Source: an uncultured Oscillibacter sp.
GTDB taxonomy: Bacteria > Bacillota > Clostridia > Oscillospirales > Oscillospiraceae
Assembly: GCA_946530565.1 (NCBI GenBank)
Contig: CAMNAE010000022.1
Location: forward strand, 1 to 12,070
Direction: 5' to 3'
DNA: 12,070 bases
The position numbers and the translations under genes are program-made. Below the pieces are notes generated by a model. It was given only the letters and a program-made list of their open reading frames with translations. It was not told where the DNA came from and did no database searches. This document shows positions 3,363 through 11,710 of the stretch, one piece after another. Every line of letters begins with the position of its first letter. Within the stretch, counting starts at the first letter, position 1.

Positions 3363-3379
3363 TTGGCAGGAAACTTGCT
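3363..3379 (+). promoter_or_regulatory. Sigma-54 promoter of the abfD-bcd-etfBA operon
   Basis: TTGGCAGGAAACTTGCT matches the sigma-54 consensus TTGGCACGNNNNTTGCT except for one C to G. The GG (3365-3366) and GC (3377-3378) dinucleotides are correctly spaced as the -24 and -12 elements. Start expected near 3390, about 50 nt before abfD. It pairs with the divergent sigma-54 activator gene and operator site 3. Confidence 0.87.
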
Positions 3380-3439
3380 GTAATCATCATTGGTGTGTAA
3401 GTGTGCAGCTTTCGACAAAAACTTGAGGAGGAAACAAAA

Positions 3440-4918
3440 ATGGCACTGAAAACGGTAGAAGAGTACATTGCGTCCCTGCGTGAACTGAAGACCCGCGTGT
3501 ACATGTTCGGCGAGAAGATCGACAACTGGGTGGATCACCCGATGATCCGTCCCTCCATCAACTGCGTGGCCATGACCTATGAGCTGGCTCAGGATCCCCA
3601 GTACAAGGATCTGATGACCGTGAAGTCCGAGCTCACCGGCGAGACCATCAACCGTTTCACCAATCTCCACCGCAATACCGAGGACCTGCGCAACAAGGTC
3701 AAGATGCAGCGCCTGCTCGGCCAGAAGACCGCCAGCTGCTTCCAGCGCTGCGTCGGCATGGACTGCTTCAACGCCGAGTATTCGACGACCTTCGAGATCG
3801 ACGAGAAGTACGGCACCCACTATCACGAGAACTTCAAGAAGTTCCTCGCCTTCGTGCAGCACAACGACCTCGTGGTCGACGGCGCGATGACCGACCCCAA
3901 GGGCGACCGCTCCAAGGCCCCCCATGCCCAGGCCGATCCCGACCTCTTCGTCCATGTCGTTGAGCGCCGCGAGGACGGCATCGTGGTCTGCGGCGCGAAG
4001 TGCCACCAGACCGGCTCCGTCAACTCCCACTGGCACATCTTCATGCCCACCATCGCGATGGGTCCCGATGACAAGGACTGGGCTGTCTCCTTCGCCTGCC
4101 CGACCGATGCCGAGGGCATGTACCTGATCTACGGCCGCCAGAGCTGCGACACCCGCAAGATGGAAGAGGGCGCCTCGATCGACGTCGGCAACGCGAAGTT
4201 CGGCGGTCAGGAGGCTCTGGTCGTTCTGGACCACGTCTTCATCCCCAACGAGTACATCTTCATGAACGGCGAGTATGACTTCGCCGGCATGCTCGTTGAG
4301 CGCTTCGCCGGCTACCACCGTCAGAGCTACGGCGGCTGCAAGGTCGGCGTGGGCGACGTTGTGATCGGTGCCGCCGCGCTCGCTGCTGAGTACAACGGTG
4401 TCGAGAAGGCCAGCGCCGTGAAGGACAAGATCATTGAGATGATCCACCTCAACGAGACCCTGTACTGCTGCGGCATCGCCTGCTCTGCTGAAGGCGTGCC
4501 CACCAAGGCCGGCAACTACCAGATCGACCTGCTGCTCGCGAACGTCTGCAAGCAGAACGTCACCCGCTTCCCCTATGAGATCGTGCGCCTGGCCGAGGAC
4601 ATTGCGGGCGGCCTGATGGTCACCATGCCCTCCGCCGCCGACTTCAACAGCGACACGCCCGTCGGCCGCAACGGCGAGACGATCGGCGAGATCTGCAACA
4701 AGTTCTTCGTGGGCCGCGAGGGCGTTTCCACCGAGAACCGTCAGCGCATCATGCGCTTCCTCGAGAACATGTGCCTCGGCGCCGCCGCTGTCGGCTACCG
4801 CACCGAGTCCATGCACGGCGCGGGCTCTCCGCAGGCGCAGCGCATCATGATCTCCCGCCAGGGCGACATCGCCGGCAAGAAGGCGATGGCCAAGGCGATC
4901 GCCGGCATCACCGACTGA
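3440..4918 (+). CDS. abfD: 4-hydroxybutyryl-CoA dehydratase / vinylacetyl-CoA delta-isomerase
   Basis: Converts 4-hydroxybutyryl-CoA to crotonyl-CoA via a ketyl-radical dehydration, using FAD and a [4Fe-4S] cluster. The family also isomerises vinylacetyl-CoA. The 492-residue product is essentially the length of the Clostridium aminobutyricum enzyme. All four cluster ligands known there (C99, C103, H292, C299) are present shifted by one: C100 and C104 in ASCFQRCVGMDCF, H293 and C300 in YHRQSYGGCKVG. These ligands separate it from its flavin-monooxygenase relatives of the HpaB family. The start at MALKTVEEYI is set by AGGAGG 8-9 bases upstream; an earlier in-frame ATG at 3401 has no such site. 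It is the first gene of the operon, 111 bp before bcd, the enzyme that uses its product. The strong codon bias fits high expression. Cytoplasmic and oxygen-sensitive by family knowledge. Confidence 0.96.
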   Translation: MALKTVEEYIASLRELKTRVYMFGEKIDNWVDHPMIRPSINCVAMTYELAQDPQYKDLMTVKSELTGETINRFTNLHRNTEDLRNKVKMQRLLGQKTASCFQRCVGMDCFNAEYSTTFEIDEKYGTHYHENFKKFLAFVQHNDLVVDGAMTDPKGDRSKAPHAQADPDLFVHVVERREDGIVVCGAKCHQTGSVNSHWHIFMPTIAMGPDDKDWAVSFACPTDAEGMYLIYGRQSCDTRKMEEGASIDVGNAKFGGQEALVVLDHVFIPNEYIFMNGEYDFAGMLVERFAGYHRQSYGGCKVGVGDVVIGAAALAAEYNGVEKASAVKDKIIEMIHLNETLYCCGIACSAEGVPTKAGNYQIDLLLANVCKQNVTRFPYEIVRLAEDIAGGLMVTMPSAADFNSDTPVGRNGETIGEICNKFFVGREGVSTENRQRIMRFLENMCLGAAAVGYRTESMHGAGSPQAQRIMISRQGDIAGKKAMAKAIAGITD

Positions 4919-4943
4919 TCACAGTCGTATCAGCAATCCCTGC

Positions 4944-4981
4944 CGCACCCGGCCGCGATGTGTGCGCGCCGGCCGGGTGCG
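4944..4981 (+). other. GC-rich intercistronic hairpin between abfD and bcd
   Basis: Perfect 12-bp inverted repeat (CGCACCCGGCCG, 4944-4955, with its complement at 4970-4981) and a 14-nt loop. It is not followed directly by a U run; AGATTTCCATATTTTTG comes next, so termination would be partial at best. It may protect abfD mRNA or lower downstream expression relative to abfD. Confidence 0.6.
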
Positions 4982-5029
4982 AGATTTCCATATTTTTGTT
5001 CCAAGCGACATTCTAAGGAGGTTCACTGA

Positions 5030-6166
5030 ATGGATTTCAATCTTTCCCGCGAGCAGGAACTCGTCCGCAAGATGATGCACGACTTCACTGAGACCGAGAT
5101 CCGTCCGATCGCAGCGGAGACCGACCGCACGGCGCAGTACCCTGCCGAGACCATCGACAAGCTGTTTGACCTGGGCGTCATGGGCATGATCGTACCCCGT
5201 GAGTACGGCGGTGCCGGTGCCGACGACCTCGCCGGCGCCATCGCCATCGAGGAGATCTCGAAGGTCTGCGCCTCTACCGGCGACATTCTGGCTACCCACA
5301 ACGGCCTTTGCTGCGGCCCGATCCTGCAGCACGGCACCGAGGAGCAGAAGAAGAAGTACCTCGCCATGCTGACCACCGGCAAGAAGGTCGGCGCGTTCTG
5401 CCTGACCGAGCCCAACGCCGGTTCCGACGCCTCCAAGGGCTGCACCACCGCGAAGCTCGAGGGCGACCACTATGTGCTCAACGGCTCCAAGATCTTCATC
5501 ACCAACGGCTATGTCGCCGAGGTGTTCGTGGTCTTCGCGATGACCGATCCCTCTAAGGGCACCAAGGGCATCTCCGCCTTCATCGTCGAGAGCAGCTTCC
5601 CCGGCTTCTCTGTGGGCAAGCACGAGGTCAAGATGGGCCTGCACGGCTCTCCGACGGCTGAGATCGTCTTCACCGACTGCATCGTTCCCAAGGAGAACCT
5701 GCTTGGCCGTGAGGGCAAGGGCTTCGGCATCGCCATGCAGACGCTCGACGGCGGCCGTATCGGCATCGCCGCGCAGGCGCTCGGCATCGCCGAGGGCGCT
5801 TACAACGAGACCGTGACCTACACCAAGGGCCGCGTCCAGTTCGGCAAGCCCATCAGCAAGTTCCAGAACACCCAGTTCCTGCTCGCTGACATGTACATGA
5901 ACATCGAGGCCGGCCGCGGCCTGCTGCACAAGGCGGCCCTGGCCAAGATGAGCGGCAAGCGCTTCTCTCTCGAGGCGGCCTGCGCCAAGCTCTTCTGCTC
6001 CGAGCTCGCCATGCAGAACACCACCAAGGCTGTTCAGATGCACGGCGGCTACGGCTACACGAACGACTATCCCGTTGAGCGCATGATGCGCGATGCCAAG
6101 ATCACCGAGATCTATGAGGGCACCAGCGAGATCCAGCGCGTGGTTATCTCCAACAACATCCTGTAA
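5030..6166 (+). CDS. bcd: Butyryl-CoA dehydrogenase (short-chain acyl-CoA dehydrogenase)
   Basis: FAD flavoprotein of 378 residues that reduces crotonyl-CoA to butyryl-CoA, taking electrons from the Etf encoded next door. Family signatures are LTEPNAGSDAS (125-135), the acyl-CoA dehydrogenase signature, and the C-terminal MHGGYGYTNDYPVERMMRD followed by ITEIYEGTSEIQR. E363 in YEGT aligns with the catalytic base of butyryl-CoA dehydrogenases (E367 in Megasphaera). Start set by AAGGAGG 7-8 bases upstream of ATG 5030. It ends 17 bp before etfB, so the two are co-transcribed. Next to abfD and etfBA, crotonyl-CoA is the natural substrate and the Bcd/Etf complex is probably of the electron-bifurcating kind. 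Another short-chain acyl-CoA substrate cannot be excluded from sequence alone. Confidence 0.93.
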   Translation: MDFNLSREQELVRKMMHDFTETEIRPIAAETDRTAQYPAETIDKLFDLGVMGMIVPREYGGAGADDLAGAIAIEEISKVCASTGDILATHNGLCCGPILQHGTEEQKKKYLAMLTTGKKVGAFCLTEPNAGSDASKGCTTAKLEGDHYVLNGSKIFITNGYVAEVFVVFAMTDPSKGTKGISAFIVESSFPGFSVGKHEVKMGLHGSPTAEIVFTDCIVPKENLLGREGKGFGIAMQTLDGGRIGIAAQALGIAEGAYNETVTYTKGRVQFGKPISKFQNTQFLLADMYMNIEAGRGLLHKAALAKMSGKRFSLEAACAKLFCSELAMQNTTKAVQMHGGYGYTNDYPVERMMRDAKITEIYEGTSEIQRVVISNNIL

Positions 6167-6183
6167 GGAGGGAAAGGCAATCT

Positions 6184-11362: not shown

Positions 11363-11444
11363 ACCAAACCTTCCTGAATCGTGCGAATTCTTTGTGAAAC
11401 TCTGAACAAGCACCCGAACAAGTGACTAATTTCCGGATATATCT

Positions 11445-11473
11445 ACTATATCAGAAGGATCAAATGAGCGCAA
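11445..11473 (-). promoter_or_regulatory. Sigma-70-type promoter for EBP2
   Basis: Minus-strand TATAGT (11445-11450), 17-bp spacer and TTGCGC (11468-11473). Predicted start near 11438. Operator site B abuts the -35 box, so EBP2 probably influences its own transcription. The -35 matches only half the consensus. Confidence 0.5.
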
Positions 11474-11489
11474 GTCTCAAAAATGAGAC
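11474..11489. promoter_or_regulatory. EBP2 operator site B (GTCTCA-AAAA-TGAGAC)
   Basis: Perfect 6-4-6 inverted repeat, the best copy of this family. It lies about 240 bp upstream of the predicted abfT sigma-54 start and directly next to the EBP2 -35 box. It shares the TCA-AAAA-TGA core with EBP1 site 1. Confidence 0.72.
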
Positions 11490-11504
11490 AATTCGGTAAC
11501 GAAT

Positions 11505-11520
11505 GTATCAGGTTTGAGAC
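11505..11520. promoter_or_regulatory. EBP2 operator site C (GTATCA-GGTT-TGAGAC)
   Basis: 6-4-6 inverted repeat with one mismatch. Its centre is 31 bp, about three helical turns, from site B and about 208 bp upstream of the predicted abfT start. A lone half-site CGAGAC follows at 11535-11540. Confidence 0.65.
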
Positions 11521-11676
11521 GATTTTTGCCGGAGCGAGACGCTTTTGATTTTGTCTTTTAAAGTGACGCAATAAGAATATGCATAATCTTTGTCAGCATT
11601 TTCACTAATTGGCCTGTGATGTTTTTGACAATGTTCACAAATCAGACGCAATTTGACGGGAATTTCACAATTTTTC

Positions 11677-11706
11677 AGCCGCTTGCCAAAAAATTGGCAG
11701 GCGGCT
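11677..11706. repeat. Inverted repeat overlapping the abfT -24 box
   Basis: 13-bp arms (11677-11689 and 11694-11706) with loop AAAA and one T/G wobble position. The right arm contains the TTGGCAGG of the sigma-54 promoter. There is no T run on either side that would make it a terminator. Confidence 0.7.
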
Positions 11707-11710
11707 TGCT
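11694..11710 (+). promoter_or_regulatory. Sigma-54 promoter of abfT
   Basis: TTGGCAGGCGGCTTGCT, with GG at 11696-11697 and GC at 11708-11709 at the correct -24/-12 spacing. It differs from the abfD promoter only in the variable four bases. Start expected near 11721, giving a leader of about 85 nt to the abfT ATG. Confidence 0.87.

Follow-up and report, generated by a model that had tools for sequence, protein, structure and literature searches.

Two putative sigma-54 switches in one contig

Do two sigma-54 promoters control two halves of one butyrate pathway in this Oscillibacter-like bacterium, and if so, do they form one switch or two? The window that we analyzed (12,070 nucleotides) is an entire contig from a MAG that is 69% complete. 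The pattern TTGGCAGGN4TTGCT (TTGGCAGG-N4-TTGCT) has exactly two matches in the window, upstream of abfD and of an abfT-like gene, and none of 200 dinucleotide shuffles contained a match. The first, P1 (TTGGCAGGAAACTTGCT; 3363..3379, forward strand), lies 60 nt from the ATG of abfD at position 3440. The second, P2 (TTGGCAGGCGGCTTGCT; 11694..11710, forward strand), lies 95 nt from the ATG of a CoA-transferase gene at position 11806. GG at -24, GC at -12, and the fixed spacing are present in both, and each has one mismatch to TGGCACGN4TTGCW. So the two sites are nearly identical and share a single deviation from the consensus, as had been claimed in the original prediction. The shuffles, along with the conservation of the promoters in relatives (see below), rule out a chance origin of the pair. 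(A looser search that allowed two mismatches is not evidence by itself, because 135 of the 200 shuffles gave at least two hits.) An rpoN-less genome had been named as grounds for rejecting the prediction, but the MAG does contain rpoN (PF04552, 145 bits, contig C14).

We then examined the genes. Downstream of P1 on the forward strand are abfD (4-hydroxybutyryl-CoA dehydratase; 3440..4918), a bcd-type acyl-CoA dehydrogenase gene (5030..6166; PF00441/02770/02771; best solved match 5ol2_C), etfB (6184..6984; PF01012; above the NCBIfam cut-off for AcrB), and etfA (7005..8141; PF01012 and PF00766; above the NCBIfam cut-off for AcrA). AbfD aligns over its full length to the dehydratase/isomerase of the 4-aminobutyrate pathway (1u8v, 909 bits) and retains the Cys-X3-Cys and His...Cys positions, which we take to be the cluster-ligand residues. 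From this alignment, we consider the identification of abfD to be secure. Downstream of P2, only the first 88 amino acids of the CoA transferase are encoded before the contig ends (11806..12069, forward strand). This fragment is 68-73% identical to the products of EBP2-linked genes from three relatives (EBP2 is the activator opposite P2; see below), and the full-length protein from one relative has 4-hydroxybutyrate CoA-transferases (3eh7 and 3gk7) as its best solved matches, so abfT is a probable but unproven name. AbfD, and the full-length protein of that relative, resemble enzymes of the 4-aminobutyrate/4-hydroxybutyrate pathway.

As predicted, a divergent gene for a protein with a Sigma54_activat domain lies opposite each promoter. 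Activator 1 (EBP1; 1615..3033, reverse strand) has a weak match to PAS, an AAA+ sigma-54 domain (PF00158, 223.6 bits) with Walker A/B and GAFTGA, and a helix-turn-helix (HTH_50). Activator 2 (EBP2; 9890..11413, reverse strand) has the same arrangement (PAS, AAA+ with 223.4 bits to PF00158 and intact Walker A/B, HTH), with HAFTGA as the loop motif. (The start of EBP2 is uncertain: it could be the GTG at 11413 or an ATG near 11354.)

Each intergenic region also contains palindromes that the original prediction had missed, which are putative upstream enhancer sites for the adjacent activator. Upstream of P1, at normal distances of 130-310 bp, there are three copies of CTATTCA-N4-TGAATAG, with two mismatches (operator 1, 3054..3071), one mismatch (operator 2, 3075..3092, conserved in relatives), and none (operator 3, 3212..3229). 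Across the MAG, the pattern HWATTCAN4TGAATWD matches only operators 2 and 3, and the reversed-pattern control has no matches. Upstream of P2 there is a perfect GTCTCA-N4-TGAGAC palindrome (GTCTCA-AAAA-TGAGAC, 11474..11489), a similar half site (TGTATCAGGTTTGAGAC, 11504..11520), and a third similar copy at or inside the start of EBP2 (11346..11362).

The best explanation, and in our view a very probable one, is that the window encodes two sigma-54 switches: EBP1 would act at P1 on abfD-bcd-etfB-etfA, and EBP2 at P2 on abfT. EBP1 would sense a ligand via its PAS domain, bind the three enhancers, and open the sigma-54 polymerase at P1 through an ATP-driven contact by GAFTGA. The proteins encoded by the P1 transcript would convert 4-hydroxybutyryl-CoA to crotonyl-CoA and then to butyryl-CoA. 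Similarly, EBP2 would use its HAFTGA loop and the GTCTCA-N4-TGAGAC sites to activate P2, and AbfT would activate 4-hydroxybutyrate with CoA.

EBP1 and its promoter are conserved in relatives

Orthologs of EBP1 (E of 1e-140 or better) are found in 48 of 86 genomes from the genus, including our MAG, and 41 of the 48 also contain rpoN. (An order-wide search, in which 4 candidates were scored per listed genome, found EBP1 in our MAG only, or 1/394.) The usual gene order opposite EBP1 is crt-CoA transferase-abfD-bcd-etfBA. A strong sigma-54 promoter (a score of at least 15.3 out of 17.4) is present at 34 of the 48 loci, and none of the 34 departs from the GG of -24 or the GC of -12. All 34 loci have at least one ATTCA-N4-TGAAT core upstream, and 31 have at least two. 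Searching for the boxes in related genomes had been proposed as a check, and this result, together with a promoter at all four EBP2-linked abfT genes in relatives, supports conservation of the promoters.

At the other 14 loci, three are from rpoN-less genomes, two are cut off by the end of a contig (G001 and G024), and nine have a divergent neighbor that is not the operon. For five genomes whose EBP1 is cut off or lies away from the operon (G033, G005, G015, G034, and G001), we checked the operon locus itself, and all five have both the promoter and the operator there. (G096, G104, G084, G076, G098, and G024 were outside this sample.) Three genomes with no EBP1 ortholog (G020, G022, and G031) have crt-abfD, and both the promoter and the operator are absent. 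G002, which is 56% complete, has the operon promoter, and we saw no EBP1, rpoN, or strict operator in it.

We rejected the idea that the promoter is not conserved in relatives, which had come from viewing 900 bp upstream of abfD (2/28 loci, including our own). That view missed the conservation because crt and the CoA transferase separate the promoter from abfD at 26 of the 34 loci. This gene order, and a Flavonifractor MAG with crt-bcd-etfBA and no abfD at the locus, indicate that what EBP1 tracks is the crotonyl-CoA node and not the 4-hydroxybutyrate branch. This corrects the original prediction, which had assigned sigma-54 control to the 4-hydroxybutyrate/crotonyl-CoA branch. Overall, the presence of rpoN, the putative enhancers, the conserved layout of activator and promoter, and the joint loss of the promoter and GAFTGA in three rpoN-less relatives (described next) make sigma-54 control of abfD a well-supported prediction.

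Changes to EBP1 and its promoter in genomes without rpoN

Four of the 48 genomes with EBP1 have no detectable rpoN. In three of these (G087, G066, and G068), and in no other of the 48, the GAFTGA of EBP1 has been replaced or deleted, while Walker A/B and the HTH are retained. The -24 box is gone in these three genomes, and the operon genes, a sigma-70-like core, and two operator cores each remain. Among loci that face the operon, the -24 box is missing only in rpoN-less genomes. The fourth genome, G032 (77% complete), still has both GAFTGA and the promoter, and we read it as a recent loss of rpoN.

A single event behind the three altered EBP1 proteins is contradicted by an enzyme tree (47 rows), which places them on three separate branches, near intact sisters: G066 with G072 (100), G068 with G069 (99), and G087 with G017/G085/G032 (98). 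(In a tree of EBP1 only, G066 and G068 are on weak branches.) A sign test on the three independent pairs gives p = 0.25, and significance is out of reach at n = 3. EBP1 and its promoter appear to have been altered together in three rpoN-less lineages in which the docking sites and the genes stayed.

How might the operon persist? The EBP1 promoter in this genus is often composite, with a sigma-70-like -35/-10 pair that seems to overlap -24/-12. A -10-like hexamer is found at -12 in 25 of the 34 loci (1.5 in shuffled flanks), and 20 loci have a -35-like hexamer as well (0.19 in shuffled flanks). Sigma-70 could therefore also fire in relatives. An extended -10 (TGnTATAAT-like) nested in the -12 element, with a -35 just upstream of -24, would be a built-in fallback, so that the operon could survive the loss of rpoN. 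After rpoN is deleted, transcription would go over to sigma-70, and EBP1 would keep its operators, lose GAFTGA, and be remodeled into a GAFTGA-less regulator that acts on unchanged enhancers.

Alternatively, the overlapping sigma-70 promoter might be what mainly drives the operon, with the sigma-54 boxes present and EBP1 merely modulating. The composite loci and the retained genes and sigma-70-like cores of the three rpoN-less genomes fit this idea. However, P1 has a -10-like TGTAAT (5 of 6) and lacks a -35 (best fit 3 of 6); in P2, both elements are missing (3 of 6 and 2 of 6). The invariance of GG and GC, and the confinement of -24 loss, at loci that face the operon, to rpoN-less genomes, also argue against it. 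We consider sigma-70 as the main driver to be unlikely, and we favor sigma-54 control by EBP1.

Probable sigma-54 control of abfT

EBP2 has orthologs (64-67%) in four other genomes from the genus. In all four, EBP2 precedes abfT, and the abfT gene has a sigma-54 promoter. (In the one relative whose neighboring genes were checked, a crotonase-family gene and genes for a TRAP transporter come after abfT.) We read the loop of EBP2 in three of the four relatives: two have HAFTGA, as in the window, and one has YAFTGA.

Given these loops, EBP2 might not be a sigma-54 activator, and sigma-54 would then control only the abfD half. Three other abfT-like genes in the genus, from G015 (85%), G084 (68%), and G033 (68%), have no sigma-54 site scoring at least 15.3 within the 8-10 kb examined, which is what this alternative would expect. 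But the first position of GAFTGA is tolerant: the available part of one survey gives Asn as validated, with Ala, Asp, Glu, His, and Ser as putatively functional. (Tyr is absent from the putatively functional list as given there.) Also, Walker A/B are intact in EBP2, and all four EBP2-linked abfT genes of relatives do have -24/-12 promoters. We think it quite improbable that sigma-54 is limited to the abfD half. For control of abfT by sigma-54, the case is good but thinner than for abfD, since it involves four relatives, a HAFTGA activator, and three genomes whose abfT-like genes lack a site.

A variant promoter in this species

We also searched the MAG for sigma-54 promoters, which gave six hits, and the reversed control gave four. 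TGGCAG is found in four of the six: P1, P2, a promoter on C34 that is beside a third activator, and C101. Because of the hits in the control, we took the other two (TGGCAT on C155 and TGGCAA on C248) to be chance. In our MAG, the base after TGGCA is G at all three promoters that are adjacent to an activator and at one further candidate. In 45 promoters from relatives, it is C, T, or A. (These comprise 33 EBP1 loci, six operon promoters whose EBP1 is cut off, not seen, or located elsewhere, four EBP2 loci, the EBP3 locus of G069, and the Flavonifractor MAG.) The RpoN box of our MAG has a Lys-to-Ala change that is found in no other of the 54 RpoN sequences compared. TGGCAG and the altered RpoN box might reflect a shift in the specificity of sigma-54. 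A caveat is that G010 has also lost this lysine (to Thr), yet its promoter is TGGCACG; in addition, the available part of a structure paper gives R455 and R456 as the contacts to -24.

Since TGGCAG is also found beside the third activator, it seems to mark the genome and not the pathway. A single activator for both promoters, which would form one butyrate regulon, is very improbable: P1 and P2 do have TTGGCAGG in common, and their gene sets are parts of a single pathway, but the operators differ, and neither type was found at the other promoter. Two activators with two different predicted operators imply that P1 and P2 are not one shared switch.

We would give an even chance to the evolutionary account as a whole: a fallback promoter, at least three switches to sigma-70 with remodeling of EBP1, G032 caught between the steps, and the drift to TGGCAG in this species.

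Comparison with known systems

Sigma-54 control of this branch had been thought to be uncommonly described. That view does not hold, as such control had already been predicted in Clostridia. The available text of Nie et al. 2019 (PMC6615313) places an abfD operon under the activator XanR and crt...bcd-etfAB under CrbR, and a 2025 survey found that COG2368, which includes 4-hydroxybutyryl-CoA dehydratase, is sigma-54-regulated mainly in Clostridia. Our locus resembles the systems described there in that the activator usually adjoins its target operon, the promoter is of the form TTGGCA..TTGCT, the targets are butyrate genes that include abfD, and the upstream activating sites are mostly at 100-250 bp. 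It differs in its Oscillibacter-like host (those groups are from Clostridium, with YctR in Clostridioides and XcgR also in Geosporobacter), in its gene order, and in having two activators that split abfD-bcd-etfBA from abfT; this comparison is by description. In Clostridium aminobutyricum, we found no sigma-54 site scoring at least 14.5 within about 1.5 kb on each side of its three abfD copies. Butyrate from Oscillibacter-like gut bacteria is of medical interest, and two candidate switches for it are now specified.

Activators without GAFTGA that work with sigma-70 are also known. As described in the available parts of two papers (PMC3162934 and PMC10274813), these include TyrR, DhaR, HupR, and NtrC from Rhodobacter and Caulobacter, and Fusobacterium and Jannaschia, which have no sigma-54, contain activators in which T4 is replaced. 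So GAFTGA loss in hosts without sigma-54 was noted earlier, and what we add is a series within one genus. The series runs from intact loci, to a genome in which rpoN was apparently just lost, to genomes in which GAFTGA and -24 are gone, and it makes the survival of a promoter and its activator a testable question. It suggests that a sigma-54 activator can be persistently maintained, with its operators unchanged, after the sigma factor disappears. Like the TyrR, DhaR, HupR, and NtrC types, these proteins probably descend from sigma-54 activators and have an altered or deleted L1 loop. What differs is that rpoN, GAFTGA, and -24 appear to have been lost three times in one genus, next to intact sisters. 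The operators and the genes of the operon are retained, and G032 represents one apparent early stage.

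Two probable sigma-54 promoters and their predicted enhancer sites

The window is an entire contig of a 1.83 Mb genome that is 69% complete. It encodes part of a Firmicute-type fructose-bisphosphatase (within the first 1.5 kb) and, on the forward strand, abfD (3440-4918), a bcd-type dehydrogenase (5030-6166), etfB (6184-6984), etfA (7005-8141), a MATE transporter (after etfA), and the first 88 codons of an abfT-like CoA transferase at the contig end. (EtfB and EtfA pass the NCBIfam cut-offs for acryloyl-CoA reductase subunits and the dehydrogenase falls short, with 527 versus 640 bits, so automatic annotation of the dehydrogenase-EtfBA complex at 5030-8141 may mislead.)

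As originally predicted, a divergent sigma-54 activator gene lies opposite each promoter: EBP1 (1615..3033, reverse strand) at abfD and EBP2 (9890..11413, reverse strand) at abfT. Both activators are of the PAS / sigma-54 AAA+ / HTH type. EBP1 contains GAFTGA, the loop motif that contacts sigma-54. In EBP2 the motif is HAFTGA, and Walker A and Walker B are intact; histidine at the first position is rated putatively functional in the accessible part of a survey.

The near identity of the abfD promoter (3363-3379) and the abfT promoter (11694-11710) was also borne out. TTGGCAGG-N4-TTGCT matches exactly at both sites, which are the only 2 matches in the window, and each site is one base away from the consensus TGGCACG-N4-TTGCW. 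None of 200 shuffles gave a match, so this is not expected by chance. The paired promoters are real, and, judging from the sequence, control by sigma-54 is very likely for abfD and likely for abfT. (A 13-nt inverted repeat, AGCCGCTTGCCAA / TTGGCAGGCGGCT, 92%, at 11677-11706, takes in the -24 box of the abfT promoter.)

Enhancers had not been listed in the original prediction, and we found candidates at both promoters. The predicted EBP1 operator, CTATTCA-N4-TGAATAG, occurs at 3054 (2 mismatches), 3075 (1 mismatch), and 3212 (0 mismatches); shuffles gave a mean of 0.01 matches. A slightly looser pattern has two sites in the whole genome, both in the window (0 with a reversed control), and matches in 51 of the 86 genomes of the genus (4 with the reversed control). 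The predicted EBP2 operator, GTCTCA-AAAA-TGAGAC, is perfect at 11474, with looser copies at 11346 and 11504.

How far the predicted abfD switch is conserved

EBP1 is present in 48 of the 86 genomes, the window's own included (E 1e-140 or better), and rpoN adjoins it in 41 of these loci. (The window's genome is among the 7 exceptions.) The usual operon opposite EBP1 is crt - CoA transferase - abfD - bcd - etfB - etfA, so the promoter sits two genes ahead of abfD. Of 28 loci scanned over 900 bp upstream of abfD, only two, the window among them, had a sigma-54 site; the apparent lesson, that the promoter is not conserved, was overturned by the survey of EBP1 loci.

Of the 48 EBP1 loci, the window's included, 34 have a promoter scoring 15.3 or more (16.9 in the window; maximum 17.4) with invariant GG and GC in the -24/-12 elements. 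At 26 of the 34, crt, the CoA transferase, and abfD were all seen; abfD without crt occurs in the window and in genome G017. Operator cores lie upstream of every one of the 34 promoters, at least two of them in 31 cases. Typically, and in the window too, the promoter is preceded by a paired site at ~260-300 bp and by a single one at ~130-150 bp.

The remaining 14 loci comprise three from genomes lacking rpoN (see below), two cut by contig ends (G001, G024), and nine with a non-operon divergent neighbour. Where the operon was examined apart from EBP1, in four of those nine genomes (G033, G005, G015, G034) and in G001, promoter and operators were present in all five. G002 (56% complete) has the operon promoter; EBP1, rpoN, and a strict operator were not detected in it. 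Neither promoter nor operator was found in G020, G022, and G031, which have crt-abfD and no EBP1 orthologue.

In a Flavonifractor MAG, EBP1 lies opposite crt-bcd-etfBA, with a promoter and what look by eye like enhancer sites; abfD and the CoA transferase are not at the locus. Because of this locus and the operon order in the genus, EBP1 is best read as a putative switch for the conversion of crotonyl-CoA to butyryl-CoA, one that takes in abfD as well across most of the genus.

At loci whose EBP1-rpoN pair lies apart from the operon (L116, L117, L134, and L142, in G033, G005, G015, and G096), EBP1 is preceded by a conserved ATGGCTGGTNCWTTGCA-like site and by a TTTTYYTTCCAGAAGRAAA-like palindrome, perhaps reflecting another target or autoregulation. 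Outside the genus, TTGGCATGAGTCTTGCA lies roughly 105 bp upstream of abfD in a Sinanaerobacter chloroacetimidivorans genome (L339); abfD may therefore have come under sigma-54 control in other lineages as well.

The predicted abfT switch

Four more genomes in the genus carry an EBP2 orthologue (64-67%). Here too the promoter is conserved: in all four, a sigma-54 promoter precedes an abfT that is divergent from EBP2 (TTGGCAAGATTTTTGCT in two, TTGGCAAGGATTTTGCT in one, and CTGGCACAGAAATTGCT in one). At one of these loci (L121, in G062), the predicted operator resembles GTTCCA-N4-TGGAAC, as against GTCTCA-AAAA-TGAGAC in the window, which suggests drift in operator identity. Against the generality of this switch, the 8-10 kb examined for each abfT-like gene of G015 (85%), G084 (68%), and G033 (68%) contain no sigma-54 site that scores 15.3.

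L121 is the sole EBP2 locus whose proteins were checked; behind its abfT come a crotonase-family gene and the TRAP transporter genes dctP and dctQ. The TRAP genes suggest an uptake-and-activation module.

TGGCAG promoters and the RpoN box

All three activator-adjacent promoters of the window's genome have TGGCAG: the two in the window and CTGGCAGATTATTTGCT, at 2434 of contig C34 (L126), beside a third activator gene (50% to EBP1) that is divergent from a livJ-type gene. (Also on that contig, at some remove, are a livF-type ATPase gene and a fused CoA transferase.) A fourth sigma-54 candidate with TGGCAG, TTGGCAGGCTTCTTGCA (contig C101, L286, 518-534, minus strand), is ~60 nt ahead of the likely start of a CoA transferase gene, which we take from its sequence to be of the CaiB/BaiF type. 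G at that base was seen in none of 45 promoters examined from other genomes; the orthologue of the C34 locus in G069 (L160) has TTGGCATATTTTTTGCT. Two more matches in the window's genome, with T and A at that base, were judged to be chance.

The RpoN of this genome (contig C14; L001, L125) has SRRTVAAYR as its RpoN box, with alanine in place of lysine. Lysine is found in 53 of 54 other RpoN sequences and threonine in the remaining one, from G010; the promoter in G010 is still TGGCACG. (By eye, the RpoN of the window's genome is nearer to those not adjoining EBP1.) Single-base promoter differences between sigma-54 paralogues are on record in the accessible literature.

Apparent repeated loss of rpoN

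The most interesting part of the result lies outside the window. Using PF04552 and also PF04963, we did not detect rpoN in 4 of the 48 genomes with EBP1: G087 (96% complete), G068 (88%), G066 (71%), and G032 (77%). EBP1 of G087, G068, and G066 no longer has the GAFTGA loop, which has been replaced or deleted, and retains Walker A, Walker B, and the HTH. The promoters of these three have lost the -24 box; each locus still has two operator cores, with crt or abfD downstream. GAFTGA is kept in all 45 other EBP1 proteins.

In a tree of the catabolic enzymes (47 rows, quick method), these three genomes are on separate branches, each beside intact sisters. Parsimony over 42 rows gives 4 changes for rpoN, 3 for GAFTGA, and 3 for the promoter. 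Three independent pairs show no disagreement (sign test p 0.25, the best possible with three pairs). EBP1 is still constrained after GAFTGA loss: whole-gene dN/dS is 0.18 for G066-G072 and 0.11 for G087-G085 (synonymous changes ~0.9 per site; G068-G069 was left out), and 0.08 to 0.26 where both members of a pair have GAFTGA.

Gene order suggests how the loss may have proceeded. In G085, EBP1 is followed by rpoN and then, 1.4 kb on, by what we take from its sequence to be a carbamate-kinase-like gene. In G032 this neighbour (99% identical) is at 140 bp and rpoN is not there; GAFTGA and the promoter are still present. In G087 the neighbour is at 98 bp, and GAFTGA and the promoter are both gone. 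This looks like a time series of rpoN loss, from G085 through G032 to G087, with the caveat that G032 is incomplete and its rpoN could be elsewhere. The neighbour is at 57 bp in G066, though the enzyme tree places G066 elsewhere.

The changed promoters of G087, G066, and G068 have -35-like and -10-like hexamers at their sisters' positions, within one base. In G087, TTGCAA and TATAAA are in place, TGGC has become GGGT, and TTGC has become TTGT; TTGC is retained in G066 and G068. Many of the 34 intact promoters look composite: at 25 loci, a hexamer matching at least 5/6 of TATAAT begins at the T of the -12 TTGCT (20 loci) or one base on, accompanied in 20 of those 25 by a -35-like hexamer at 16-19 bp. 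With shuffled flanks, the corresponding numbers are 1.5 and, with the -35-like hexamer, 0.19. In the window, the abfD promoter has TGTAAT and no -35, and the abfT promoter has neither, so both look sigma-54-only in this species.

Comparison with known systems

The original prediction held that sigma-54 control of this butyrate branch is not commonly described. It is not undescribed: in its accessible text, a 2019 study (PMC6615313) predicted sigma-54 control of butyrate genes in Clostridiales, an abfD operon included, and found that sigma-54 bound some promoters in vitro. In 2025, COG2368 was entered as sigma-54-regulated in Clostridia (PMC12316311). The main text of neither paper names Oscillibacter. 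A literature search of titles and abstract starts (supplements and most subscription papers were beyond reach) returned no report of repeated parallel loss in one genus with operators kept. Going by the accessible parts of earlier work, sigma-54 sites that overlap other promoters, with resulting repression, are known in E. coli; activators without GAFTGA that use sigma-70 are also known (PMC3162934; PMC10274813), and a link between GAFTGA loss and missing sigma-54 has been proposed for Fusobacterium and Jannaschia (PMC3162934).
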